From the NCBI RefSeq assembly GCF_000969985.1, contig NZ_CP009526.1, positions 4,402,001 through 4,466,000 on the forward strand: a stretch of DNA of 64,000 nt. Direction: 5' to 3'. Shown here one piece after another: positions 6,608-45,585 of the stretch. The translations under genes and the position numbers were made by a program. This DNA is from Methanosarcina barkeri str. Wiesmoor. Its GTDB lineage: Archaea; Halobacteriota; Methanosarcinia; Methanosarcinales; Methanosarcinaceae. How positions within the stretch are numbered: the first letter of the stretch is position 1; each line of letters starts with the position of its first letter. A model generated the notes under the pieces. That model was given only the letters and a program-made list of their open reading frames with translations. It had not been told where the DNA came from and did not search any database.

Positions 6608-7461
6608 GCACTACTGTTGTGACAGTTAACAGGGGACTATTTAGAGGATTAAATCTCAGGCAGAAAACGCTTCTGATAATAGGTTTCACTTCACTTTTAT
6701 TACTTTCAATTGTGGTTTCCAGCGTGTTTTTAGGTGAGGAACCGCTACATACCAATTTCGGCTCTAAAAACCTTGCTCCTTCTCTGGAACACCCATTCGG
6801 AACAGATTGGATGGGAAGAGACATGTTTATAAGGACTCTGGAAGGACTGGGTTTAAGTATACTGGTTGGAGGGCTTGCTTCTACAATCAGCACTGTATTG
6901 ACCGTAATTTTAGGATTACTTTCAAGTGCAGGAAAAACTGCAGACTCCTTTGTGTCGTGGCTGGTAGACCTCTTTCTTTCAATTCCTCATCTGCTTTTAA
7001 TAATTCTTATTTCCATCGGAATGGGAGGAGGAGCAACAGGAGTTATTACCGGAGTTGCATTAACGCACTGGCCAAGCTTAACAAGGGTCGTAAGAGCAGA
7101 AATCAAGCAACTGAAAACCCAGGAGTACATTCATATCTCCAGGAATCTTGGCAGGTCAAAATGGTGGATAGCTACAAGACACATTCTACCTCATCTGGTT
7201 CCCCAGATACTGTTAGGCACGATTTTAATGTTTCCACATGCGATTTTGCACGAAGCTTCAGTCACATTCCTGGGGTTCGGGCTTTCACCACATGAACCGG
7301 CAATCGGTATAATTCTTTCCGAATCTATGAGGTATCTTTCAGCAGGATACTGGTGGCTTGCATTTTTCCCGGGATTGTCGCTGTTAATTGTAGTTCTGGC
7401 ATTTGATATGATTGGAGAAAGTTTAGGAAAGCTGATGAATCCGAAAAATGCTCATGAATAA
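6604..7461 (+). CDS. ABC importer permease, DppC/NikC type
   Basis: Second permease half, 285 residues, pairing with the upstream DppB/NikB-type subunit. It has the typical N-terminal membrane segment, then HPFGTDWMGRDMFIRTLEGL, the usual signature of the DppC/NikC subfamily, and the EASVTFLGFGLSPHEPAIG region near the C-terminus. It starts with GTG at 6604, overlapping the previous gene's stop (ATGTGA). The following ATPase genes are 327 bases away across a repeat array, an unusually wide gap inside such an operon. Confidence 0.93.
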   Translation: MSTTVVTVNRGLFRGLNLRQKTLLIIGFTSLLLLSIVVSSVFLGEEPLHTNFGSKNLAPSLEHPFGTDWMGRDMFIRTLEGLGLSILVGGLASTISTVLTVILGLLSSAGKTADSFVSWLVDLFLSIPHLLLIILISIGMGGGATGVITGVALTHWPSLTRVVRAEIKQLKTQEYIHISRNLGRSKWWIATRHILPHLVPQILLGTILMFPHAILHEASVTFLGFGLSPHEPAIGIILSESMRYLSAGYWWLAFFPGLSLLIVVLAFDMIGESLGKLMNPKNAHE

Positions 7462-7479
7462 ATTTCTTTTGTTACTTGA

Positions 7480-7750
7480 TTCAAAATATAGTGGAGTTGA
7501 AATTTACTGGAGTTGAAATCTACTGGATTCAAAATGTGCTGGATTCAAAATTTACTAGATTCGAAATTTACTAAATTCAAAATGTGCCGGATTCAAAATT
7601 TACTAGATTCAAAATATGCTGGATTCAAAATGTGCCGGATTCAAAATTAACTAGATTCAAAATATGCTGGATTCAAAATTTACTAGATTCAAAATTTACT
7701 AGATTCAAAATGTGCTGGATTAGAAATGCTGGATCTAAAATGTACTGAAT
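7480..7750. repeat. Degenerate tandem repeat between permease and ATPase genes
   Basis: Roughly 15-17 imperfect copies of a 15-18-bp unit based on GATTCAAAATTTACTA or GATTCAAAATGTGCTG fill the space between the nikC-like and nikD-like genes. No gene is visible in it. It may lengthen the untranslated message between the two halves of the operon. Confidence 0.85.
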
Positions 7751-7788
7751 AAAAAAGATGTTAGATTTAGATCTGGAGAGCGTGAAAT

Positions 7789-11085: not shown

Positions 11086-11229
11086 CCAATTATTGGTTTT
11101 TTCCTTTCAACTAAATCTTCCTATATAAGTATCACACACTAAATATATATCTGTTGTTATCTCTGACTCGTATATGATATTTAAATGCAGACATATTAAA
11201 AATAGAGTAACGGCTGATGAAAAAGTAGT

Positions 11230-11385
11230 AATGAACAAGGAATGATGAGCAAAGAATGATGAGCAAAGAATAACGAACAAAGAATAACGAACAAAGAATA
11301 ACGAACAAAGAATAACGAGCAAAGAATAATGAACAAAGAATAATGAGCAAAGAATGATGAGCAAAAAATGATGAGCAAGGAATAG
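11230..11385. repeat. 14-bp tandem repeat
   Basis: About eleven copies of a 14-bp unit alternating between AATGATGAGCAAAG and AATAACGAACAAAG lie just downstream of leuB. Since 14 is not a multiple of 3 and the unit lacks stops in the minus-strand frames, all three minus frames stay open with the same peptide periodicity. These open frames are artefacts of the repeat, not genes. Confidence 0.92.
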
Positions 11386-11413
11386 TAAAAAAATATAGGG
11401 AAGGAGAATTGAA

Positions 11414-12541
11414 TTATTCTCCCTTTATTATCCTTGCAATGTCGTCTCCGACATCTGAGGTTGTGCTCTTGCCACCCATGTCATAGGTTTTTACTTTGCT
11501 GTCCAGAATGTTTTTCTGGATTGCATTAACTATGGTGTCTGCGGCTTCTTTTTCTCCGAGATGTTCTATGAGCATTGCACCTGCCCAGATTGTGGCAATC
11601 GGGTTGACTTTGTTCTGTCCCTTGTACTTCGGAGCTGAACCGTGAATCGGCTCGAACATGCTCGTGCCTGTCGGGTTGATGTTTCCACCGGGAGCAAGGC
11701 CAAGGCCACCCTGGATCATGGCTCCGAGATCAGTAATAATGTCTCCGAACATGTTCGGGGTTACAACCACATCGAACCATTCGGGGTTTTTCACAAACCA
11801 CATTGTGACGGCATCAACGAAATTAAAGTCTGTAGTAACGCCGGGATGTTTTGCAGAAATTGCATTGAACTCTTCTCTCCAGAAGCCGTAGATATCGGAA
11901 AGCACATTTGCCTTGTCAACGGAAGAAACGTGTTTTCTCCGGTTCTCGGCAAGGTCAAAGGCGTACTCGATAACCCTGTCTGTACCTTCCTTGGAGATAA
12001 GGCCTATCTGGTATCCTATTTCTTCGCTGTCAGTCTCGATATCAAGACCGAATTTTGCAGAGTAGAGCGTTCTTTTTACTTCAAGAAGGTCTTTGCTCGC
12101 TCCTTTTTTTGCTCTACCGCCGACCCCTACGTAGAAGTCCTCGGTGTTTTCCCTGACAACCACAAAATCGATATCTTTCGAGGTTTTGTCTTTGAGAGGG
12201 GTCCACACCCCATCAAGAAGTTTTATCGGGCGAAGGTTAACATACTCGTCAAAATAAAAGCGTGCAGTTAATAAGATTCCCTTCTCAAGGACGCCAGGGG
12301 CAATCCTTGGATCTCCGATGGAACCAAGGTAAATGGCAGGGTATCCGGATAGCTCCTTTAAGGTATCTTCCGAAATCAGTTCTCCCGTTTCAAGATAATG
12401 ATCTGCTCCCTGCGGGTATTCAATCCACTCTACATCAAAACCGAATCTTTCGCCAGCGGCATCTATTACCTTTCTGCCTTCGGCGATAATTTCTGGGCCT
12501 ATCCCGTCGCCCGGGAGGACCGGAATCTTATACTGCGTCAT
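11414..12541 (-). CDS. leuB: 3-isopropylmalate dehydrogenase (isocitrate/isopropylmalate dehydrogenase family)
   Basis: NAD-dependent beta-decarboxylating dehydrogenase, 375 residues, probably oxidising 3-isopropylmalate in leucine synthesis. It opens with [15 protein letters not shown], has the substrate-binding Arg segment [25 protein letters not shown], and the metal/NAD region [20 protein letters not shown] followed by [11 protein letters not shown]. The ATG at 12541 follows AAAGGAGTG, so I prefer it to the GTG-type extension 57 bases upstream. leuD-like small subunit lies 95 bp upstream in the same direction. The segment [20 protein letters not shown] differs from classic bacterial LeuB, so a related acid (homoisocitrate, D-malate) remains possible. 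Confidence 0.8.
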
Positions 12542-12636
12542 ATTTACACTCCTTTGAAATTTACAGGCAAAACTGCCTTTTTTATTGCGAGATCTCAAAC
12601 GCGGACAGGGCTGTCTCAGGACAGATTTCCTGTTTT

Positions 12637-13125
12637 TTAGCGTTCAGAGACCAGTTTCCTGGCATATTCGATAAGTCCACCCTCATCCACGATTTCACGC
12701 ACGAAATCAGGGAGAGGGGTTGCCTGGTAGGTTTCACCTTTTGTCTTGTTTTCAATAACTCCTGTGGACAGGTCTACTTCAAGCTCGTCTCCATCGTCAA
12801 TCCTGTCAGTATCAGGGCATTCCAGGACAGGAACTCCGATATTTATTGAGTTCCTGAAAAAGATCCTTGCAAAAGATTTTGCAATTACACAGGCTACCTT
12901 TGCTCCTTTCAGGGCAAGGGGCGCGTGCTCACGCGATGAGCCGCAACCAAAATTGTTTCCCGCGACTACGATATCATTTTCATGAACTTTTTTTGCAAAT
13001 TCGGGGCGTACACCTTCAAACGTGTACTTTGCAAGCTCTTCAGGGGTATTGTAAATCAAGTACCTTCCGGGAATCACTGCATCCGTATCCACGTCGTCTC
13101 CGAACTTCCAGGCTCTTCCTTTCAT
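12637..13125 (-). CDS. leuD: 3-isopropylmalate dehydratase small subunit
   Basis: Small (swivelling-domain) subunit of the aconitase-family isomerase, 162 residues from ATG 13125 (an upstream TTG adds 8). [17 protein letters not shown] and [20 protein letters not shown] are the family signatures. The specificity loop reads YLIY. In methanogens YLRT is associated with homoaconitase and YLVY-like loops with isopropylmalate isomerase, so leucine synthesis is favoured. The matching large subunit is not in this window. It is followed by leuB, an order that fits a pathway pair. Confidence 0.88.
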
Positions 13126-13313
13126 AACATCACCGGTCTTTTGTTGCAATTAAATGCAGCTACATTAGAATTTTTACAGCCCGAATTTAGCTGCATTCAC
13201 AGGGTTGAAGTATCACAGGTAATATTTATATTATTTTCTAACATGACTCAAAAATTAGTTAACAATTCCAATTCTCTTAATCCTGAGTTTTCCCCGAAAA
13301 TCTACAAAATGAG

Positions 13314-14651
13314 TTACTTTTGTAGTTGAACGGCATTTTCATTGCTTTTTTCTTTGAGATGAGAGTCAAAAGCACTTGGTTCCCCTCCTCCGTGCCAGCT
13401 TAGCCTCGGGCGGATGCGCACAAGATGAACTGACTCGGAATGGTCATCCACTATCAGGGCAGCCCCTCTTTCACTTCCCATCTTCTTAATATATGCCTGG
13501 AGATTTTCCTGCATATAAAGAGGCCGTGAAGTTTCCAGAGCAAGAATATCATCACTTGCCGTAAGGCGGTGGCAGATAAGAAGGTCACTCTGGGAAACAA
13601 CATCCGGATGCAGGCTTGCAGGCCGTTGGGTTGCCAGGACAAGGGAAAGGCCAGGCTGCCGGCCCTGTCTGAGGCAGCGGTTAATAAGTACCTTCGAAGC
13701 AAGGCCTTCAGTCTTTGCGGGTATGAAAATGTGAGCCTCATCTATAAAGAGCCAGACCATGGGAAATTCTTCCCTATGAGCCTTTTCTCCCATAAGTTTT
13801 TTTTCGTAGGTTCTTCTTGCCTCAAGTCTTGCTTCATAAAGTCTACCTGCAATAATTGATACTGCTGCAGCGCAGACGTTTTCGTTTTCAAGCGTACTCA
13901 CATCAAGGATAGTTGTTCTCCCTCCCGACACGAGATCTGACAGTTTTGTTCCTTCTTTTGAGAAAAGGCCCCAGGAATTTACTGCTCTAAAGTAATTCTC
14001 TACAGCTCCTTTTGAAGCCTCATCCGAGCGAGGGTCTCCGGCAATCTCGCGGAGAATTTCTTCAAAAGAATATGCTTCTCCTTTTTCTCTGAGGGATTCT
14101 ATTGCTCTTACCATTAGAATTCCAGGAGGAGAAACCTCTTCGATACTAAAGATCCTGCACCACTGGCTTCCTGAAAGTTCGCTTATCGGGATGGAAAATG
14201 GCTTTACATCAATATTCCTTTCCCTATAAGCTTCAACCTTGCCCACAGGCACGAAAATCTCAATATCGAGCCCGGCTGGAGTGAGTTCCCAGTTTTTAAG
14301 CTTCCGCGCTTCAAAAGCGTTTGGATACTTCATCGTCCAGAAAATCCCCATAGTGTCAATAACAACGGATGCAAGTCTTTTTTTAATGGCCGGTTCAAGA
14401 AAAGCAAGTTCTTCAAGCAAACAGCCCATGGTATAGGATTTTCCGTATCCTCTTTTCCCGCAGATCAAAATAGCATGAGGCTTCAGGGCATCAAGATAAA
14501 CGGCTGCTCCCCGCGAGTGGTCAAGTGCCATGTAATTTCCAATTGACAGGAGACCCTTTCCAGGGTTCTCTTCACTTCCAAGTACACGCAGCGCCCCAGT
14601 ATTTTTCCCCCGAAAAACAGGCCTTAGTTCTTTATTTTCAATTTTAGGCAT
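13314..14651 (-). CDS. HerA-like DUF87 ATPase
   Basis: P-loop ATPase of the HerA/VirB4-like (DUF87) group, 445 residues. N-terminal beta-rich part (LLSIGNYMALDHSRGAAVYL), Walker A CGKRGYGKSYTMG, a middle segment, Walker B WLFIDEAHIFIPA and the sensor LVLATQRPASLHPDVVSQSD, followed by ICHRLTASDD. HerA proteins pump or process DNA, often with NurA in end resection, but no nurA, mre11 or rad50 gene is adjacent, so this may be one of the orphan relatives. A decayed copy of its N-terminal region lies at 16478-16565. Confidence 0.88.
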   Translation of the reverse strand: MPKIENKELRPVFRGKNTGALRVLGSEENPGKGLLSIGNYMALDHSRGAAVYLDALKPHAILICGKRGYGKSYTMGCLLEELAFLEPAIKKRLASVVIDTMGIFWTMKYPNAFEARKLKNWELTPAGLDIEIFVPVGKVEAYRERNIDVKPFSIPISELSGSQWCRIFSIEEVSPPGILMVRAIESLREKGEAYSFEEILREIAGDPRSDEASKGAVENYFRAVNSWGLFSKEGTKLSDLVSGGRTTILDVSTLENENVCAAAVSIIAGRLYEARLEARRTYEKKLMGEKAHREEFPMVWLFIDEAHIFIPAKTEGLASKVLINRCLRQGRQPGLSLVLATQRPASLHPDVVSQSDLLICHRLTASDDILALETSRPLYMQENLQAYIKKMGSERGAALIVDDHSESVHLVRIRPRLSWHGGGEPSAFDSHLKEKSNENAVQLQK

Positions 14652-14918
14652 CAGATAGTATCGGATTGAAAACTATTTAAAATAATTTACTTAATAACAG
14701 TTAAATAAAATAAGTATTGTAACTAGTATAAAGGGTGATATGTAGCTTTAATTTATTTTATGTAGGCTGAATAGTTACATTTATTATTAATTAATACATT
14801 TATAGTGTATCTTACATAAGGCAGTGGCAAAAGAGAGTTGGAACGAAATTAATAAAAAACAATTGCAGCCGAAAGTAGGATTTTTAGTAAAATAAATAGT
14901 TTAGGTGGGAAGGTATAA
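14652..14918 (+). promoter_or_regulatory. Upstream region of the putative modified-peptide operon
   Basis: AT-rich divergent region between the HerA-like gene and the small WCVACGAG protein. A TATA-like TTTATAGTG lies at about 14809-14817, about 100 bases before the start codon, allowing a long 5' untranslated region. The ribosome binding site GGTGGGAAGG is at about 14903-14912. Confidence 0.4.
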
Positions 14919-15287
14919 ATGGAACTTACAGAAAAGCAGCGTACTTTATTGAAAGGACAGATTGAAGAATTTCTAAAGACTAAAAATTCTGAAGACGATT
15001 GGTGTGTTGCATGCGGAGCAGGGGCTGCAGAGTCAAAAGATTTGTTGTCCAGAGATCCGGAAATATATCGTCAATTTACTTCTAAAGAAACAATAAATGA
15101 TTTGCTTACATCTCCCACAGTTTCAGCACTGATTCAAAAAAGTGGTTCTAATATGTGGTGTGTTGCTTGTGGTGCAGGCAAAAGTAAATCACTTGGTGAA
15201 GATGTGATTAATCCTGCGATGAATAAGGGGTCATCCGCAGAGATTGATAAAGCAATGACCAAAGTCATTGAAATTCTTAAAGAATGA
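14919..15287 (+). CDS. Putative radical-SAM-modified peptide precursor with two WCVACGAG motifs
   Basis: Small soluble protein of 122 residues with no membrane segment. The only cysteines are in two identical octapeptides, WCVACGAG at residues 28-35 and 80-87. Residues 1-27 are charged and helical-looking (MELTEKQRTLLKGQIEEFLK), like a RiPP leader; the tail (EIDKAMTKVIEILKE) is also helical. It is followed 51 bases later by a radical SAM/SPASM enzyme, the arrangement typical of peptide-modifying systems such as sactipeptides and ranthipeptides. I infer that the enzyme modifies the Trp/Cys motifs. Alternatives: a CxxC metal-binding or redox protein matured by the enzyme. I do not recognise a named family. 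Confidence 0.8.
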   Translation: MELTEKQRTLLKGQIEEFLKTKNSEDDWCVACGAGAAESKDLLSRDPEIYRQFTSKETINDLLTSPTVSALIQKSGSNMWCVACGAGKSKSLGEDVINPAMNKGSSAEIDKAMTKVIEILKE

Positions 15288-15301
15288 ATCTGAGATTCAT
15301 T
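15283..15301 (+). terminator. Hairpin and T-run between precursor and radical SAM gene
   Basis: AATGAATC (15283-15290) and GATTCATT (15294-15301) form a perfect 8-bp stem with a 3-nt loop, overlapping the precursor stop codon and followed by TATTCTTTTTTCTTTTTAA. It may partly terminate transcription, giving much more precursor than enzyme message, as is common in RiPP operons. Confidence 0.6.
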
Positions 15302-15338
15302 ATTCTTTTTTCTTTTTAATATTTGAGGGGACTTTGAA

Positions 15339-16430
15339 ATGGAATTATATAAGTCTAAATTAGTTCGAATTTTTTATAATATTACAAATCGTTGCAATTT
15401 ATACTGTCATTATTGTTATGCAGGTTCTGGTCATCCAGTTGATCAAGCCCAACTATCCTTAGATACTATTGAACGTATAGCTTCAGACGGGAGAAAGTGT
15501 GGTGCAAGTTCGGTACTTCTATCTGGGGGTGAGCCTTTTTTTCGTAAAGATTGGTTTGATGTGTTTAGCGTTTTCGATGATTATGGATACGACTTATCAG
15601 TTAGTTCAAATGGAACATTGATAAATGAAAAAACTATTCAAAAGTTAACAAAATTTAAAAATATAATATTTCAAATAAGTTTAGATGCATCTGAACAAAA
15701 TTTTGATAAAATTGTTGGTGTTAATGGAACGTTCAAGCGAGTGACAAAAGCAATAGATCTCTTGCTAGCAAATGGATATGAAATTCAAGTTAACAGTGTG
15801 TTGCATAAAAGCAACTTTCAGGATATACCTTTCTTAATACGATATTCTTATGAACGAGAGTTGTTATTACGTTTTACTCTTCTTAGCACAGATTATGGTA
15901 GAGCGAAAGGAAGTCCTTTAAGTCTTGATTTGAGCCAAATTCAAAAGGTTATTCAGGCAGTTCACGTTTCCAGAAAAGTAAATCCATACGTAGAATTAAA
16001 TATTCCACCATTACTTCTTCATCCAGACGACTTATTCCATATTTCTCCTTCGTGTGGGTGGATGCATCATCAGTGTGGAATACAAAGTAATGGCGACGTA
16101 ACTATTTGTGGACTCTCCGGTGGTAGACCAGATCTTGTGGCAGGTAATGTAAAATCACAATCGTTGGAATATCTGTGGAATAACTCTCCTCTATTTAGGA
16201 AACTGCGATTGTTGGAAATCACTAAGATCAAAGAAATTTGTGGAATTTGTCCGTTTTTAAGTGTATGTGGGGGGTCATGCAGGCTAACTCCTTACATATC
16301 GACTGGAGACTTTTACGCTCCGAACGGTGTTTGTCAGATGTTTTATGAAGCATTGAAGCGTGGTGATATAGAAGACTTTCCTTCCTATGTGATCAATCTG
16401 GGTTTTATGGAGTGCCTATCTCAAAATTAA
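15339..16430 (+). CDS. Radical SAM/SPASM peptide-modifying enzyme
   Basis: Radical SAM enzyme of 363 residues. The cluster motif CNLYCHYC (Cys 19, 23, 26) binds the 4Fe-4S used to split S-adenosylmethionine; LLSGGEPFFRKDW is the GGEP motif and SLDASEQNFDKI a typical strand. The C-terminus has a SPASM domain: CGIQSNGDVTIC, then CGICPFLSVCGGSC (C-x2-C-x5-C-x3-C) and a last Cys in NGVCQMF, expected to bind auxiliary Fe-S clusters. The start ATG 15339 follows TTGAGGGGAC. The gene lies directly after the two-motif small protein, its likely substrate. No peptidase or exporter is next to it. Confidence 0.9.
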   Translation: MELYKSKLVRIFYNITNRCNLYCHYCYAGSGHPVDQAQLSLDTIERIASDGRKCGASSVLLSGGEPFFRKDWFDVFSVFDDYGYDLSVSSNGTLINEKTIQKLTKFKNIIFQISLDASEQNFDKIVGVNGTFKRVTKAIDLLLANGYEIQVNSVLHKSNFQDIPFLIRYSYERELLLRFTLLSTDYGRAKGSPLSLDLSQIQKVIQAVHVSRKVNPYVELNIPPLLLHPDDLFHISPSCGWMHHQCGIQSNGDVTICGLSGGRPDLVAGNVKSQSLEYLWNNSPLFRKLRLLEITKIKEICGICPFLSVCGGSCRLTPYISTGDFYAPNGVCQMFYEALKRGDIEDFPSYVINLGFMECLSQN

Positions 16431-16477
16431 TATGTAATATGTAGGATATGGTAGGGAAGTCACTCTCACCTTCTCAT

Positions 16478-16565
16478 TAAACGGTAGCTCTCAGCGAGTG
16501 GTTAAATGCCATGTAATTTCCAATGGACATGATGCCTTTTCTGGGATATCCTCACTTCTAAAAAC
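16478..16565 (-). pseudogene. Decayed fragment of a second herA-like gene
   Basis: About 85 bases align almost without gaps to the N-terminal coding part of the HerA-like gene (14507-14590). Read on the minus strand they give SEDIPEKA, a frame break, then SIGNYMAFNHSLRAT, matching SIGNYMALDHSRGAA. It sits on the far side of the putative RiPP pair, so the pair is bracketed by herA sequence. I infer a duplication or recombination at this locus. Confidence 0.8.
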
Positions 16566-16672
16566 TAAAACTCTAAAAATTCAGAATCTCTAAAATATAA
16601 AGGTTAAGAGCTTAGCTCAACCCTGAAAAGTAAATATTAGAATGTCTCAGAAAATTATATGGAACTATTTGT

Positions 16673-17743
16673 TTAGGATATTATCTTATCCAGCTGGCCT
16701 GTTTGGGCTGCGATTTTGATTTCCCTGGCTATTCTTCTTCCGGTTGAGAGGTTTTCTTCCATCAGGTCGGCATAAGGAGAACCTGAAATGTAAAGGTTTG
16801 TTCCTGCAACAATTCTGGCCGAGATCTCAAACACTTTAATCTCTAGCGTATCCGTAAAAACAGTCTCAAGGCAGAAAGACCCTATCATCCCGCCAAAGAG
16901 GCCAAGAGATTCTTCAACTACCCTTTCTCCAAGAGAGAAGATGAGGGGTAAGAGGGATTCTCTTGCTACAAGGGGCATATTTCCTGTGACTACATATGTC
17001 GGGCGGATTCCTGCTCCTACGAGTTCTCTGGGGGAACCGAGCCTGAAAATTTCATCCGCATTGGATTCTACCCTGCGGTCCATGCTCAGAAGTTCAAGGC
17101 TGCCCTTGCTTAAAGTGTATCCTTCGTTTCGGATAGGGGAATAGAAGTAATGAAGGTAATAACGGGTCCCGGTGATAAATTCCTGAATCGTGTACTTCTG
17201 GGTCCGGTCTATAAGTTCTTCGAACTCTTCGTAGGTTTTTGCGACGAAGAAACCTTTTCCTCCTTTTGCCCCGTCGTACTTGACCATTACAGGCCCATTA
17301 ATATCGTGAGGATCATCGACTTTTCCGGGCATATGAATGCCTGCTCCGAGCAACCACTCACGCTCTTTATCCCTGTCTGATTCCCATTCGAGCACAGCCC
17401 GGTTTCCAAAAGTAGGTACGGCCATATCTGCAAAATTTTCCGTGCCAAGGTAAGCAACTACTGAGCCGTGTGGGATAATAATGGTGTTTTTCTGTCTAAG
17501 CTCCTCAGCCTTATTCATTATATCGGCATAGCTATCGACGACAAGGTACTCATCGGGTTTTGCTTTGGGAAAAGCCTCATAAAATTTTGGAGGCTTGCCG
17601 ACGCAGATTCCCAGAGTTCTGAAGCCTTCTTTCCGAGCTCCGTCAAAAATTTGAAGGCTAGAGTGGGAGCAAATTGTTGCAATTGTAATGTTTTCTAAAT
17701 CGTAATTTTTCAGAAATTCAAGAACCTGCTGTTTTGTGATCAT
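16673..17743 (-). CDS. purP: 5-formaminoimidazole-4-carboxamide ribonucleotide synthetase
   Basis: ATP-grasp-type enzyme of 356 residues that forms FAICAR from AICAR, ATP and formate, the archaeal formate-dependent step of purine synthesis. N-terminal IATICSHSSLQIFDGARKEGF and GICVGKPPKFYEAF, central NTIIIPHGSVVAYLG and PTFGNRAVLEWESDRDKER, ATP-binding VMVKYDGAKGGKGFF, and C-terminal FEISARIVAGTNLY are typical of PurP. Length is normal. It is divergent from the next gene. purN lies 40 kb away in the window. Confidence 0.95.
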   Translation of the reverse strand: MITKQQVLEFLKNYDLENITIATICSHSSLQIFDGARKEGFRTLGICVGKPPKFYEAFPKAKPDEYLVVDSYADIMNKAEELRQKNTIIIPHGSVVAYLGTENFADMAVPTFGNRAVLEWESDRDKEREWLLGAGIHMPGKVDDPHDINGPVMVKYDGAKGGKGFFVAKTYEEFEELIDRTQKYTIQEFITGTRYYLHYFYSPIRNEGYTLSKGSLELLSMDRRVESNADEIFRLGSPRELVGAGIRPTYVVTGNMPLVARESLLPLIFSLGERVVEESLGLFGGMIGSFCLETVFTDTLEIKVFEISARIVAGTNLYISGSPYADLMEENLSTGRRIAREIKIAAQTGQLDKIIS

Positions 17744-17932
17744 GATTGGTACCAGCGGAAAATTTAGATTAGTATATACAATGTTCTATTTAAGGTTAAG
17801 GTCTGGATTCTATATCTAGATATAGTAGTGAATGAATATTCTGCCATAAAAATAAAACTTTATATTGATTCGCGCAAACTAAGGTTAGACTCTGAGGTAA
17901 AAATAGACAGGTTTTTAATCCAGGAAGTAATT

Positions 17933-18850
17933 ATGGACGAGCTCAAAGATCAGGATGGTTTATCGGCAACCAGCGACTCCTTGCCGGGATCGGAGCAGCT
18001 GGAGCAGGGTGGCAAGGTGCTTGTTCTCCCGGTAAATGGGGAATCCAGAAAGATCACTCAAATCCTTTCCAATGAAACATCAATAAAGATTCTTGAGTTG
18101 CTCGGAAAAAAAAGCATGTCTGCAACCAATATTGCAGAGGAGCTGGAGCTTCCCCTTACTACTGTCAAGTATAATCTTGACTCACTTATAGAGTCCGATC
18201 TTATAAAGATCAAACAAATAAAGTGGAGCAAGAAAGGAAGGCAAGTAAAGATCTACGAGTCAGCCGAAAAACTGATTGTCCTCGTTCCTTCGAAAAGCTC
18301 TATAGACAAACTCTCTCTCGTAAGCCTGCTGCAAAAGTACCTCGGAGTAATAGGAGCTGCCTTTTTTGCAGCCGCAGGTATAGAGTATTTTTCAGCTTAT
18401 ATGAAAGCAAAACGGGTAATTGATGCAACTGCTCCTTTGAGAATGAGGACAATGGAAACACTTGACAATTCTTCTCCAGAGCAAATGATACTGGGAATAA
18501 ACGAGAGCAATAACGTAAGCCCGAAAATAGCTCTCGACCAGCAGGTGCCCGAAGGAGCTGCAAATACAAGCTCTGAGGCTCTGGGATCTGGAGAAGGAAA
18601 TCTGTCCTCTGGACTGGAAGCTGGCACTACTCAAGGAGTTACTGAAGTCCCGATGTCCACCCCGGATGGTTTAAACTCTGTACCGGGGTGCTCATCTATT
18701 CCGCCTGAAGGGTTATCTCATGCAAGCGGGATTCATGGGCTTTATGACATGCTTTTTCTTCACCCTGGGTTCTGGTTCCTGTTAGGGTGTCTTTTTATAG
18801 TAGTCGTACTGATTGTAAGAGAAGTCTATTATAAGAAAAAAGCCAAGTAG
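17933..18850 (+). CDS. Membrane-anchored winged-helix regulator (ArsR-like)
   Basis: Predicted transcription regulator of 305 residues. A winged-helix domain lies at about residues 40-115 (ETSIKILELLGKKSMSATNI, ELPLTTVKYNLDSLIESDLI, WSKKGRQVKIYE). A membrane segment follows (LGVIGAAFFAAAGIEYFSAY), then a Ser/Gly/Glu-rich linker and a second C-terminal membrane segment (FWFLLGCLFIVVVLIV) with a basic tail. The frame is open 35 codons upstream, but ATG 17933 has AGGAAG before it. Such membrane-bound HTH proteins are common in Methanosarcina; its target is unknown. truA begins 8 bases after its TAG stop. Confidence 0.8.
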   Translation: MDELKDQDGLSATSDSLPGSEQLEQGGKVLVLPVNGESRKITQILSNETSIKILELLGKKSMSATNIAEELELPLTTVKYNLDSLIESDLIKIKQIKWSKKGRQVKIYESAEKLIVLVPSKSSIDKLSLVSLLQKYLGVIGAAFFAAAGIEYFSAYMKAKRVIDATAPLRMRTMETLDNSSPEQMILGINESNNVSPKIALDQQVPEGAANTSSEALGSGEGNLSSGLEAGTTQGVTEVPMSTPDGLNSVPGCSSIPPEGLSHASGIHGLYDMLFLHPGFWFLLGCLFIVVVLIVREVYYKKKAK

Positions 18851-18858
18851 AGATTCTT

Positions 18859-19668
18859 ATGAGAGTCGCTTTAAAACTTGCATACATAGGCACCGAGTTT
18901 CACGGCTCCCAGATCCAGCCCAATGTTGAGACTGTGGAGGGAGAACTCTTCAAGGCTCTTCGAAATCTCGGGATTATAGAAAGCCCCAAGTCTGCGAATT
19001 ATACCTGCGCCGGCAGAACTGATGCCGGGGTTCACGCCCTTGAACAGGTTGTTGCCTTTGACACGGATAAACTGAACCTGGCAATTCCAAGGGTAATAAA
19101 TTCCGAACTTACCCCAGGAATCTGGGTCTGGGCCCACGCGGAAGTGCCCTTAAGCTTTGATGCCAGAAGAGATGCGGTTTCCAGACACTACCGCTATGTA
19201 ATGAGCGGAAAAGAGTATGATATCTCCAAAATCCGGGAAGCTTCAAAATTTCTGCTCGGAACGCACGATTTTGAAAACTTTTCGCGAACCAATGGAGAAA
19301 AAAGTACGGTTCGAACCATAGAAAGGATCGATGCCCGCATAGATGGAGAACTTATAAAAATCGACGTTGTTGGGAATAGTTTCCTCTGGAATATGGTCCG
19401 GAAAATTGTGACCGCCCTTTCCATGATCGGAAAAGGAGTACGTGATACCGATTGGCTGCTCCAGATGCTGAATCCGGAGATTTATGAAGAAGGAATCGAA
19501 TCTGCTCCTGCTTATGGATTGACCCTCCTGAAAGTGAATTATAACGAGAAAATAGAATGGATTGAAGACAATTACTCTATCAGGAGAGCAGGTGATCAGA
19601 ACCAGAAACGTATCCTCAGGCATAGGGTCATGGCAGAAGTGCTAGAAGAATTGATCTCCCATGAGTAA
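18859..19668 (+). CDS. truA: tRNA pseudouridine(38-40) synthase
   Basis: Enzyme of 269 residues converting uridines 38-40 of the tRNA anticodon arm to pseudouridine. The catalytic Asp is in CAGRTDAGVHALEQVVAF; LSFDARRDAVSRHYRYVM and FENFSRTNGEKSTVRTIE, and NSFLWNMVRKIVTAL near the C-terminus, match archaeal TruA. It starts 8 bases after the regulator's stop, so the two are likely cotranscribed, and is followed by oligo-T runs. Confidence 0.94.
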   Translation: MRVALKLAYIGTEFHGSQIQPNVETVEGELFKALRNLGIIESPKSANYTCAGRTDAGVHALEQVVAFDTDKLNLAIPRVINSELTPGIWVWAHAEVPLSFDARRDAVSRHYRYVMSGKEYDISKIREASKFLLGTHDFENFSRTNGEKSTVRTIERIDARIDGELIKIDVVGNSFLWNMVRKIVTALSMIGKGVRDTDWLLQMLNPEIYEEGIESAPAYGLTLLKVNYNEKIEWIEDNYSIRRAGDQNQKRILRHRVMAEVLEELISHE

Positions 19669-19702
19669 AAAGTGCCTTTACATGGATTCTTAACATTTTG
19701 AA

Positions 19703-19768: not shown

Positions 19769-20000
19769 TATAGTATTTATCCGAAGTAAGACGATATCAA
19801 TAGCTTTCTTTAATTAAATTCAATAGACATATCTCTCAAAATCAATTTCCCTCAATTATTGGCTACTGATTCCATTTTTCATTTTCACTGGTTGGTATTT
19901 GAATCTCAATCTTTTCGGATATGCTTTAAGTTGAAATCGTTGGCAGTAAATTGACTTCATATAGGCTGAATAATTGTTAAAATCAATAAACATCGATAGA

Positions 20001-20072
20001 GTAAGAAGAACAGTAAGAAGAACAGTAAGAAGAACAGTAAGAAGAACAGTAAGAAGAACAGTAAGAAGAACG
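20001..20072. repeat. 12-bp tandem repeat
   Basis: Six copies of GTAAGAAGAACA end exactly at the stop codon of the next, minus-strand gene. The array forms that gene's immediate 3' flank. Confidence 0.93.
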
Positions 20073-21332
20073 TTAGTAATGAACGAGCCCTATCTTTTCA
20101 CCGCTTGGAAAATATATAAATCCGTTTACCTTCAGTTTCCTTAAGGCATTATCAAAAGTAAAATCGAATAGCTTTGTATTACTCCTGACAGTGCTTAATA
20201 AAAGAGGAATTCCTGCATCATCCAGTTCTGTTATTTCTTTAAGCAGGACTTCTGCTTCAGAAGGCAATCTATACAGAGAGTTTGTTGACATTTTTTTAAG
20301 TTCACTTACGTTATGTCTTGACCCATCCATTACATCTGACCAAAGTCCTGTACTTGTTTTCAAATCATTAAGTGTTACCCAGGATTTAAAATTAAGTCTG
20401 GCAAAGGAAGTAGCTAATTTCGGAATAACCGATCCGATGTCCTGATAATACGGAATGTCTTCCCTTGAAGATATTTCATCCAGAATAAAGTACATTGCAT
20501 TTTCCATTCTCTTTTCTACTTTTTCAGGAACATATGGCTGGAATAGAAGAGAGTTAACCATATATGCTCTTGCTATAGGCAGGTATTCTTCAAAACTTTT
20601 CTTATATTCCCCATATGTTTTGAATGCCATGTTTAAAGGAATTGGAAGGTGAATAGGCACATCGGTTACATCAAAATAAGATAAATTAACTTCGCGACTG
20701 TTAAGAGGATAAATTTCCTCATTATTTTCCAGAAACTTATAAAAGTTCTTGGAAGAAGGCCGTCGAAATTCCTGAGGGACAATTCCTAATATCCTCTTAA
20801 AAGCGGCCCATTTCTGTCGATCCCGGTGTGTATCCAGAGCTACGGTGTTTACTCCGCCTTTCTCAAGGTCTGTTATTTGAGGGGCTGAGATTGCACACAT
20901 ACCCAAACAGTATCGAAAATCCTCAATGTTGTAAAAGTTTGGATTTTTCACAGGAGTTGATAAAAACTCCAAAAACTCTTCTGTACTTGCTAAGTCTTTA
21001 GCCCGAATTTTATTTGGATTTATGTTTTTCCAGCCAATTATGTATTTAACTAAAATTGGGTCAAGTTTCTGCTCTTTAAGTCCATAAAATGTTTCGGTTT
21101 CCGTCACAGCAACTTCTACTAATTTGTCCTTTGGTGGAAATTCCCCGCTTTTTACCACATAAATCTGGTTTCTAGGGTCATTATAATAAGGAGAAGGATC
21201 AAGATAGAAAATTCCTTTTTCCTTATCTTTGTACCGGACATAACCCGTATTTTCTATTCTAAAAATAAGATTATATTCGCTTGCTGCAAATTCATAACCA
21301 CGGCTTCGGTCTTTTAAAGGAGGCAATGCCAT
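20073..21332 (-). CDS. Uncharacterised archaeal protein, 419 residues
   Basis: I do not recognise the family. The protein is soluble, with no signal or membrane segment. Near the N-terminus is a beta-rich stretch (YVRYKDKEKGIFYLDPSPYY), followed by an alpha-rich middle and a C-terminal part that looks like a winged helix (FDFTFDNALRKLKVNGFIYF). Cysteines at YCLGMCAIS could be structural. A single gene, convergent with truA and flanked by tandem repeats. Codon use looks like that of neighbours, and the length and lack of stops make it a real gene. Confidence 0.8.
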   Translation of the reverse strand: MALPPLKDRSRGYEFAASEYNLIFRIENTGYVRYKDKEKGIFYLDPSPYYNDPRNQIYVVKSGEFPPKDKLVEVAVTETETFYGLKEQKLDPILVKYIIGWKNINPNKIRAKDLASTEEFLEFLSTPVKNPNFYNIEDFRYCLGMCAISAPQITDLEKGGVNTVALDTHRDRQKWAAFKRILGIVPQEFRRPSSKNFYKFLENNEEIYPLNSREVNLSYFDVTDVPIHLPIPLNMAFKTYGEYKKSFEEYLPIARAYMVNSLLFQPYVPEKVEKRMENAMYFILDEISSREDIPYYQDIGSVIPKLATSFARLNFKSWVTLNDLKTSTGLWSDVMDGSRHNVSELKKMSTNSLYRLPSEAEVLLKEITELDDAGIPLLLSTVRSNTKLFDFTFDNALRKLKVNGFIYFPSGEKIGLVHY

Positions 21333-22643: not shown

Positions 22644-22885
22644 TGGTGATCCGGAATAGGTTGATAATTGTAAACTCGAAATGATATTCGTACCATAACG
22701 TTGAGGAAATGAATATAAAACTCCGTGCGTGAAACGTGAAAGTAGTTATTAAAAGTAACTGATGGGTTTGATTGCAGTTATTCTGTGAAATATCAAGGCA
22801 TATCAAAAAGTGTAAATGAATTTTAAAAATCAAGTCGGTTAGTATATAAAAAATTAAAAATCATATTATTATCACTATGACATAA

Positions 22886-23625
22886 GGCTTTGGTAGTTAA
22901 CTATAGTTATATATTATGAGAACCTATATTTCTATATGAACTGCCCAAGGTGTAATAGTTCCACTCACAAAAAGAATGGTATAGTATTTGGACGTCAACA
23001 CTACAAATGCCATGATTGTGGATATAATTATACCGTAGAGGTAAAATCAACTGCTAGCTCCCCTTCTGTTAAGAGACAGGCTTTGCAACTCTATCTTGAA
23101 GGGTTAGGATTTCGCTCAATAGGAAGATTTTTAGGAGTAAGTCATGTTTCTGTCCAAAAATGGATAAAGAAATTTGGTCAGGAGTTGGAGGACCTAAAAA
23201 GCGAAAATGAGATATCTATTGTTGAAATGGATGAGATGAACACTTACATCGGTAACAAAAAAAATATTGCTGGATCTGAATTGCTGTTGATAGAGTTGGG
23301 AAAAAATTCATCAACTGCTCTTTTGGCAGCAGAGGAACGGAAACTGGACAACTAATATGGGAAAAATTAAAGCAAAAAGAGATTGGAGAGGTGATGACAG
23401 ATCACTGGAGAGCATATGCAGAGTTTCTTCCAGAAAATATTCATACTCAATCCAAAGCCGAAACGTATACAGTTGAAGGATATAACGGCATATTGAAGCA
23501 CTTTCTGGCAAGGTTGAGACGAAAGACAAAATGTTATACGAAGAGTATTGAAATGCTAAAGTACTCTGTTCTTCTATTGATGAAACATAGAAATAAAGAG
23601 ATAGCTATAATTAGTTAACAATACC
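22886..23625 (+). mobile_element. IS1-family element, copy 1 (inactivated)
   Basis: A 740-bp element starting GGCTTTGGTAGTTAAC and ending GTTAACAATACC, imperfect inverted ends. It is almost identical to the copy at 26986-27725 in the same orientation, with only a handful of base differences. No 8-9-bp direct repeat is visible at its flanks, unlike copy 2. The transposase is broken. Confidence 0.88.
22936..23618 (+). pseudogene. IS1-family transposase, copy 1
   Basis: The first frame (22936-23355) encodes a zinc-ribbon start (CPRCNSSTHKKNG, CHDCGYNY), an HTH segment (LGFRSIGRFLGVSHVSVQKW) and the first catalytic region EMDEMNTYIGNKK. After an A8 run (23257-23264), where IS1 elements use a -1 frameshift, the shifted frame reads KYCWI, a TGA stop (23274-23276), then IAVDRVGKKFINCSFGSRGT and the rest to 23618 (DHWRAYAEFLPE, VEGYNGILKHFLARLRRKTK). 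So even with frameshifting the protein is cut by a TGA where Trp is usual. Confidence 0.85.
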
Positions 23626-26249: not shown

Positions 26250-26985
26250 CTGTGTAATTTAGAGGATTTTACTAGGTGTTCTATCAATCTACTATAATCC
26301 AGGATTTCATAAAATGTTTTCCTGTATAACACTCATAGTTTGCCCTTAGAATATTACTAAAGTTCAATAGATCACACATCCCTGAGTAAGAAAAGAATTA
26401 AACACTCGATAGCTTTGAGTTTCTTTTCTTCAGAACATCTCGATTCGGTTTTTAGGCTCTTCTCTGTTTTGTATGAGTTGAAAATAATTGCTTAGTTAAA
26501 AAGCATTCAGATCAAATATGAAAAAATCAAGCTTGAACGTGATTTTTTAACAAGAACTATTTCCATATCTTATATATGATGCTTCAACATTCAGGAGCTA
26601 TATGTAAGTTACCCACTCAAAAGAGCGAAGAGTCAGTTTTTATTTAACTGATTAAGTATATGATAGTTAAAAGGTTAAATAATGTTAGGACCTTCAACAG
26701 CTTAGACGTGAAAACAAATTAAGACTGGATAAAATACTATCAAATCTAATGGGTGACTCTAAACTTGGCTTGAATTAAATTACTGTTACTTCATCCTTGT
26801 AAAGTTAACAGTTCATGAGAGTGTCTGAAGTGACTGATATAATAGAGATGAGAAAGCTCATGAAATGGATGAAGGTATAAATTAATGAAGTAGGTCTATT
26901 GCTCTCTAATTGCAAATCGGTTAATGTGCAGAGCCGAGAATATGAACTCAATCAAGGTCTTAATCTTATTATTAGAATTAATACA
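26250..26985. other. AT-rich intergenic region upstream of IS1 copy 2
   Basis: About 735 bases with no supportable gene. Many stops in all frames and no clear homology to neighbouring sequences. It holds the promoter of the radical SAM gene. Confidence 0.6.
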
Positions 26986-27733
26986 GGCTTTGGTAGTTAA
27001 CTATAGTTATATATTATGAGAACCTATATTTCTATATGAACTGCCCAAGGTGTAATAGTTCCACTCACAAAAAGAATGGTATAGTTTGTGGACGTCAACG
27101 CTACAAATGCCATGATTGTGGATATAATTATACCGCAGAGGTAAAATCAACTGCTAGCTCCCCTTCTGTTAAGAGACAGGCTTTGCAACTCTATCTTGAA
27201 GGGTTAGGATTTCGCTCAATAGGAAGATTTTTAGGAGTAAGTCATGTTTCTGTCCAAAAATGGATAAAGAAATTTGGTCAGGAGTTGGAGGACCTAAAAA
27301 GCGAAAATGAGATATCTATTGTTGAAATGGATGAGATGAACACTTACATCGGTAACAAAAAAAATATTGCTGGATCTGAATTGCTGTTGATAGAGTTGGG
27401 AAAAAATTCATCAACTGCTCTTTTGGCAGCAGAGGAACGGAAACTGGACAACTAATATGGGAAAAATTAAAGCAAAAAGAGATTGGAGAGGTGATGACAG
27501 ATCACTGGAGAGCATATGCAGAGTTTCTTCCAGAAAATATTCATACTCAATCCAAAGCCGAAACGTATACAGTTGAAGGATATAACGGCATATTGAAGCA
27601 CTTTCTGGCAAGGTTGAGACGAAAGACAAAATGTTATACGAAGAGTATTGAAATGCTAAAGTACTCTGTTCTTCTATTGATGAAACATAGAAATAAAGAG
27701 ATAGCTATAATTAGTTAACAATACCTTAATACC
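26978..27733 (+). mobile_element. IS1-family element, copy 2, with near-perfect target duplication
   Basis: The element is 26986-27725 (740 bp), the same ends as copy 1. It is flanked by TTAATACA (26978-26985) and TTAATACC (27726-27733), 7 of 8 identical, the duplication length known for IS1. Its right end is 11 bases from the start of an EamA transporter gene. Confidence 0.88.
27036..27718 (+). pseudogene. IS1-family transposase, copy 2
   Basis: Same structure and same lesions as copy 1: first frame 27036-27455, then an A8 run, a shared in-frame TGA, and a second open stretch to 27718. It differs from copy 1 at a few codons (GIVCGRQRYKC versus GIVFGRQHYKC; TAEVKS versus TVEVKS). Because the broken TGA is shared, one copy cannot have been made by its own transposase after the mutation; help in trans or recombination is needed. 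Confidence 0.85.
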
Positions 27734-44943: not shown

Positions 44944-45585
44944 ATGAAAGTTCTTTACGTTTACGCACACCCGGAACCGAAGTCTTTTAACGGCGCTTTA
45001 AAGGAAACAGCACTTGCTGCCCTACAGGAGAAAGGGCATGAAGTAAAGCTCTCGGACCTTTATGCAATGAAGTTTCATCCTGTCCTGAAAGCTTCTGATT
45101 TTCCAGAACGAAAAAAGCAGGATGTTTTCAAGCCTTTCTTTGAAGCAATACAGGCCTCTAAAACAGGAGCTTTTGCACCTGATGTTAAAGAAGAAATGGA
45201 TAAAGTAAAGTGGGCAGACCTCCTAGTATTTCAGTTCCCTATTTATTTCACTTTCATGCCAGCTATAATGAAAGGATGGATCGACCGCGTCCTGGCTCCT
45301 GGGTTTGGTTTTAACCCGGTTACGAATAGTGATTACGATACCGGGCTTCTTAAAGGAAAATCCGCAATAATTGTTACAACTACCGGAGCTCCAAAAACAA
45401 TGTATTCTGAGGGAGGAGCACACGGAGACCTGAACAAGCATTTGGAATCAATAACCCATTGTATTTTTGAATATATGGGGATGAAAGTGCTTCCATCTTA
45501 CATAATTTACGAAGCGAGCAGCATGTCCAGGGAAAGAGGAGCTGAAGAATTAGAAAAGTACAGGCATCGAATACTTGACCTTTAA
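44944..45585 (+). CDS. NAD(P)H dehydrogenase (quinone), flavodoxin-fold
   Basis: Flavoprotein of 213 residues in the NQO1/MdaB/KefF-like group (Flavodoxin_2), which transfers two electrons from NAD(P)H to quinones or similar acceptors, often for detoxification. MKVLYVYAHPEPKSFNGALK is the FMN/FAD phosphate loop; VFQFPIYFTFMPAIMKGWID and AIIVTTTGAPKTMYSEGGAH are typical. Methanosarcina uses methanophenazine instead of quinone, so the natural acceptor is uncertain. Single gene. Confidence 0.9.
   Translation: MKVLYVYAHPEPKSFNGALKETALAALQEKGHEVKLSDLYAMKFHPVLKASDFPERKKQDVFKPFFEAIQASKTGAFAPDVKEEMDKVKWADLLVFQFPIYFTFMPAIMKGWIDRVLAPGFGFNPVTNSDYDTGLLKGKSAIIVTTTGAPKTMYSEGGAHGDLNKHLESITHCIFEYMGMKVLPSYIIYEASSMSRERGAEELEKYRHRILDL

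Follow-up and report, generated by a model that had tools for sequence, protein, structure and literature searches.

The junction between a herA-like gene and purP in Methanosarcina barkeri str. Wiesmoor, located in a 64,000-nucleotide stretch of contig NZ_CP009526.1 (positions 4,402,001 to 4,466,000; hereafter the window, whose numbering is used throughout), probably bears the scar of a recombination event in what is a variable slot separating these two genes. The junction contains a cassette of two plus-strand genes, a precursor-like gene (14919-15287) and a radical S-adenosylmethionine (SAM)/SPASM gene (15339-16430). This cassette sits, as a first-pass annotation of the bare sequence had claimed, between an intact herA copy and a decayed one. 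According to the proposed model, a left arm comprising leuD, the intact herA and the cassette would have been joined to a right arm carrying a different, decaying herA allele, a spacer and purP. The observations behind it are the herA repeat itself, the mosaic affinities of the sequences around it, the differently filled or empty sites of relatives, and the lack in this genome (4.9 Mb in two contigs) of a close copy of the oxidoreductase gene that several relatives carry at the same place.

The intact, resident herA (13314-14651, minus strand) encodes a HerA/FtsK-like ATPase of 445 amino acids. The protein holds a DUF87/HerA central domain (1.8e-11), with a score far under the curated HerA equivalog cut-offs, and matches 11 HerA models and mad8 of PADLOC at 72.2 bits at best. 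Its closest relative, 95% identical in amino acids, is that of G028 (G numbers designate the comparison genomes). The stretch 14497-14581 of this gene, codons 24-52, is repeated at 16478-16561, also on the minus strand, by a fragment that runs collinear with codons 52 to 24 and in the same orientation as the resident gene. The two copies are 80% identical over 85 columns with one 1-base gap, a deletion in the fragment, and their ungapped 64-nt core (14497-14560 versus 16478-16541) reaches 83%. The alignment scores 48, against a maximum of 15 in 1000 dinucleotide shuffles, and the fragment is the sole other significant match in the whole genome to positions 14470-14660 (E=4e-14; the next, 0.067). 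Alignment revealed no similarity to the resident herA at either 16431-16477 or 16566-16672. Thus, the frameshifted similarity noticed in the first-pass annotation is real, while its details had to be amended: position 16478 pairs with 14497 instead of 14507, and the matched region is the one given above, not the first codons of herA. The order and orientation of the fragment are those expected of the 5' end of an old herA lying next to purP.

The comparison with relatives involved 29 other genomes of the genus (30 with the one studied), in 20 of which the herA-purP junction was read, including G009, although its herA is a remnant. The 20 do not include G019, G003 and G027 (purP beyond the stretch), G007 (only a 1.5-kb flank) and G004, G010, G011, G017 and G024 (herA absent or reduced to a remnant, purP beyond the fetched DNA, or nothing fetched). 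Neither the cassette nor a further herA fragment is present in any of the 20 junctions, as searched with the fragment, the 5' part of the herA studied here and that of each genome's own herA at E<=0.01, a search that heavily decayed scrap may escape. The absence of the precursor and radical SAM genes from these congeners rests on whole-genome searches. Junctions free of both cassette and fragment therefore exist, as the first-pass annotation had anticipated for a gained element, and the opposite outcome, a cassette in all relatives next to a fragment with no excess similarity to herA, was not what was found.

In eight of these congeners (G028, G013, G020, G016, G001, G012, G002 and G009) the slot is filled by a flavodoxin-fold NAD(P)H oxidoreductase-like gene (Flavodoxin_2, 6.5e-35), which lies in pieces beside herA in G019. 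In G009, where herA is present only as remnants, the oxidoreductase frame is open (209 amino acids, 86.5% to that of G028). A different reading frame, mutually alike by eye, occupies the slot in G014, G002, G026, G008 and G005; its start in G005 matches winged-helix domains (HVO_A0261_N, 4e-10; HTH_5, 5e-6) and is regulator-like. A third frame, of 310 amino acids, is present in G002. No ATG-started open reading frame (ORF) of at least 60 amino acids is found in the junctions of G023, G022, G018, G006, G015, G021, G025 and G029. Near full-length herA matches were obtained in 21 of the 30 genomes of the genus, including the one studied, and remnants or nothing in the other nine, several of which are incomplete assemblies. 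In G023, G022 and G018 (loci L058, L059 and L060) the herA-like gene is decayed, and leuD and purP are matched over their full length. The description of the locus as a herA-linked island is hence fair only in the sense of a variable slot in which relatives hold different genes. A whole-genome search for the oxidoreductase in the studied genome returned no close copy, only one gene matched in two pieces (27%, E 7.9e-9, and 42%, E 7.1e-8; window ~44944-45501), so that this genome lacks the slot gene of its sister G028.

The mosaic nature of the junction becomes apparent when its parts are compared with the same genomes. Trees of leuD, herA, purP and the helix-turn-helix (HTH) gene unite the studied genome with G028 (local support of 0.89, 0.94, 0.99 and 0.95, respectively), and G013 joins next in all four (0.95, 0.80, 0.51 and 0.98). 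Over 12500-19700, G028 is usually the closest genome, not in every bin: in the bin starting at 16550, G023 reaches 92% and G022 84%, while G028 has no match. The spacer proximal to purP (16557-16672) belongs to the type found in G023, at 92% over 112 columns, and can be aligned to G022, G018 and G006 as well, whereas G028, G013, G020, G016 and G001 have a different spacer, located behind the oxidoreductase gene. Beyond it, purP (16673-17743, minus strand; formate--phosphoribosylaminoimidazolecarboxamide ligase, NF009781, 739 bits) groups with G028 again.

The fragment also departs from the resident gene. Over the 85 nt, the resident herA does not differ from that of G028. The fragment, in contrast, shows 17 differences in 84 sites, of which 8, 1 and 8 fall at first, second and third codon positions, respectively. 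The third-position divergence between the studied genome and G028 is 148/1314 (11.3%). For a copy made after these two split, the probability of at least 17 differences in 84 sites is 3.9e-6 at half the divergence from G028, 0.012 at the whole of it and 0.12 at 15%. Six of the states in which the fragment departs from the studied genome are shared with the decayed herA of G022 (p=0.0026), five each with G015, G021 and G019 (p 0.009-0.013), and five with the outgroup consensus, G022 included (p=0.0026); these p values, from a test on 13 genomes, are uncorrected, and its null assumes 72% transitions against 11/17 observed. When the tree (15 rows) is held fixed, the fragment is best placed with G022, with a weight by resampling of estimated log likelihoods (RELL) of 0.48, or 0.70 with the neighbouring branches, compared with 0.09 for the studied genome, G028 or both together.

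The join would have been illegitimate at the end of the cassette, at ~16478, inside the old herA at about codon 52, with recombination presumably anchored by homology on one side only (homology-facilitated illegitimate recombination). The scrap at 16478-16561 would then be the rest of the second herA allele, whose promoter and first codons had been removed by another small deletion, and the oxidoreductase gene carried here by near relatives would have been lost. A displacement model of this kind has been put forward for the effector-immunity arrays of Vibrio cholerae (PMC5361080), by authors who call such events rare. As in those arrays, a new module stands behind a conserved arm with a remnant of an older module downstream; here, in contrast, the scrap is the 5' end of a helicase-like gene. 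The mosaic affinities fit such a displacement, in which the anchor may have lain on either side and either arm may have been the resident one.

Several data weigh against this reconstruction. The rate argument is weak at a divergence of 11-15%, where the probability is 0.012-0.12. The 85 columns also give a weak signal: over them, the approximately unbiased (AU) test keeps the fragment as sister of the resident herA (p=0.27), and the G020 group is the only placement that it rejects (0.029). As both G022 and the fragment are decayed, their shared states could be homoplasies. Moreover, the fragment leans towards G022 and the adjoining spacer towards G023, which suits none of the sampled genomes as sole donor, and the donor arrangement is seen in none of the sampled genomes. 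Repeated losses and gains of the oxidoreductase could also mean that the studied genome kept an older spacer.

The duplication suggested in the first-pass annotation, in which a fast-decaying copy of the 5' part of the resident herA would have arisen upon insertion of the cassette, draws on some of the same points: the direct orientation within one genome, the sister placement that the AU test retains, and the weakness of the rate argument if the unconstrained rate reached 11-15%. It is nevertheless weakened by the 17 differences in a stretch where the resident and G028 genes are identical, by the states shared with the outgroup and G022, and by the adjoining spacer, which is of another allele type, all of which make it unlikely. 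A vertical relic would require instead that this lineage kept the ancestral spacer and the old herA scrap, that the intact herA and the cassette arrived later on the left, and that separate transfers brought the oxidoreductase block to G028, G013 and others. This scenario would account for the spacer type common to G023, G022, G018 and G006 and for the decay of herA in several congeners; it is rather doubtful in view of the sister relationship with G028 in four gene trees, and of the oxidoreductase in the slot, which looks old because it is also present in the distant G012, G002 and G009, and broken in G019.

A transposon origin of the cassette has to be considered from the features of the left joint. 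The region upstream of herA (14652-14711) is homologous to that of relatives, and the homology fades at ~14711-14730 (14730 in the G023 alignment). Next come a plus-strand match with two mismatches to the dispersed repeat GTAACTCGTATAAAGGGTAATATG (14719-14742), which at other sites bounds a block on its left, next to the start of an IS110-like transposase, and a solo, perfect 16-nt terminal repeat (14763-14778, plus strand) of a family of miniature inverted-repeat transposable elements (MITEs) with GTAACTATTCAGCCTA termini, identified by genome-wide matching. The idea that a mobile element with ends at 14719-14778 carried both genes is favoured by the perfect MITE end and the other dispersed repeat, which lie 140-200 bp before the precursor gene. 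However, the end is solo, with no inverted partner in the window within three mismatches, no target duplication is seen by eye around 14719-14778, and neither of the two genes is a transposase or an integrase, which renders this origin very improbable. A composite transposon or an integrase island was rejected on account of the solo terminal repeat, the presence of just two genes between herA and the fragment, and the mere 80% identity of the direct repeat. The pieces of dispersed repeats at 14719-14778 may mark joins.

The GTAACTATTCAGCCTA end occurs at 25 sites (<=2 mismatches) of the studied genome, compared with two for the reversed control. These give 16 printed pairs (three are one site and two share one end), most of them of 194-196 bp; the others measure 214, 296, 329, 346, 372 and 599 bp, and masked bases occur in two of these. 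By eye, six of the pairs have a perfect 8-bp target duplication. The family is also found in several congeners (loci L099, L103, L109, L110, L112, L122 and others). The locus upstream of the cassette resembles its members in the perfect terminal repeat and differs from them in having one end only, and is thus a scrap and not an element. The GTAACTCGTATAAAGGGTAATATG repeat begins a 348-column block that is 93.7% identical between the studied genome and G028 (L140 2564-2909 and L141 2709-3056), the flanks of which have no match in the stretches fetched; in G028 (L141), the start of an IS110-type transposase (28.3 bits, for a cut-off of 29) adjoins the block. Of the 30 genomes of the genus, 22 have short matches to 14705-14925, counted without distinction between the repeats. 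A resemblance by eye between the sequence left of the cassette and that upstream of the oxidoreductase fell short of significance in all 12 junctions, and Rfam gave no match at gathering score over 13000-18000.

Regarding the cassette, its architecture indicates that it most likely consists of a precursor peptide and a radical SAM/SPASM enzyme that would modify the cysteines of the two WCVACGAG motifs of that peptide, the product most likely being a cysteine-linked peptide. The putative precursor, of 122 amino acids, carries these motifs at residues 28 and 80. Both copies look constrained, because their four DNA differences over 24 nt all fall at third codon positions. No family matches the precursor above cut-off (the best is CCDC84, E=5.9e-4, 20.0 bits for a cut-off of 25.3), and no NCBIfam model was found under E=0.17. 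The maturase-like protein, of 363 amino acids, exceeds the cut-offs of PF04055 (9.3e-24) and PF13186 (1.6e-9). Its cysteines, when set beside reference radical SAM/SPASM patterns, are arranged as CNLYCHYC (CxxxCxxC type), C-x12-G-x4-C, CxxCx5CxxxC and another C downstream. Its nearest NCBIfam model is WgkB (149.6 bits for a cut-off of 650), and all models among the matches listed (25 of 92) lie below their curated cut-offs, so no defined family of ribosomally synthesized and post-translationally modified peptides (RiPPs) is assigned. A sequence search of PDB yielded 13 distinct chains, the best being PqqE (E=2.8e-15). In PADLOC, residues 11-162 match two prokaryotic viperin models (77.0 and 72.8 bits); these matches are taken as superfamily similarity, and a viperin identity was discarded.

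The gain of the foreign-looking cassette suggested in the first-pass annotation is supported by its composition and by the scarcity of homologues. The G+C content at third codon positions is 25.2% in the precursor gene and 25.3% in the radical SAM gene, the second lowest among the 28 ORFs of at least 250 amino acids in the window, versus 39.9-48.1% in leuD, herA, purP, HTH and truA. In 58 other genomes, no match to the precursor was better than E=0.0195, and the radical SAM protein found matches at E<=1e-30 in four, all of 29-33% identity and none above 33%. E<=1e-45 was reached by the studied genome alone in a search of the class with this protein (1/237), as was E<=0.01 with the precursor in a phylum sample (1/392), where the DNA pattern for WCxACGAG also occurs, twice, in this genome alone (1/392). 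Scans of genome contigs, viral contigs, plasmids and phages (the latter with the precursor only) detected no cassette; those run with a single protein against genome and viral contigs reach close relatives only and may omit the records nearest to the studied genome. One Verrucomicrobia locus is a weak lead (24% identity over 140 amino acids). Three precursor leads (E 0.02-0.1) and the four radical SAM leads were dismissed, with no WCxACG in ORFs of at least 40 amino acids within fetched loci of ~3-4 kb, as were three viral contigs carrying the DNA motif in reading frames unlike the precursor. No paper treating the herA-purP cassette locus was found, judging by titles or the start of abstracts.

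Radical SAM/SPASM RiPP cassettes are likewise composed of a short peptide gene directly 5' of the radical SAM/SPASM gene, with the CxxxCxxC and SPASM cysteines, and here the cysteine motif is repeated in the precursor. The differences lie in the listed models, which stay below their cut-offs, in the precursor, which matches no family above cut-off, and in the fact that this cassette is known from its genes alone. It is possible, as a tentative proposal, that it is the first example of a new RiPP class, made up of a precursor with two cores (two WCVACGAG motifs at a distance of 52 residues) and a dedicated maturase, brought into one lineage of the genus and parked in the herA-purP swap site.

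Other repeats are present in the window. An array resembling clustered regularly interspaced short palindromic repeats (CRISPR) at 1607-2900 has 18 copies of a 37-nt repeat with a spacing of 68-83 nt, and within it 2207-2314 and 2571-2678 are repeated at 100%. Two direct 300-nt copies (22863-23162 and 26963-27262), 4.1 kb apart, are 96% identical, and tandem arrays are located at 7440-7775 (16-nt units), 11191-11393 (14-nt) and 19988-20083 (12-nt).

For M. barkeri and its genus, the herA scrap, which probably stems from another allele, would be the trace of a slot rebuilt through recombination and not through simple duplication, and it marks the spot between herA and purP as a place of gene swapping. 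The radical SAM/SPASM gene and its precursor-like partner lodged there would constitute a peptide-modifying pair without known relatives, which is open to direct testing.

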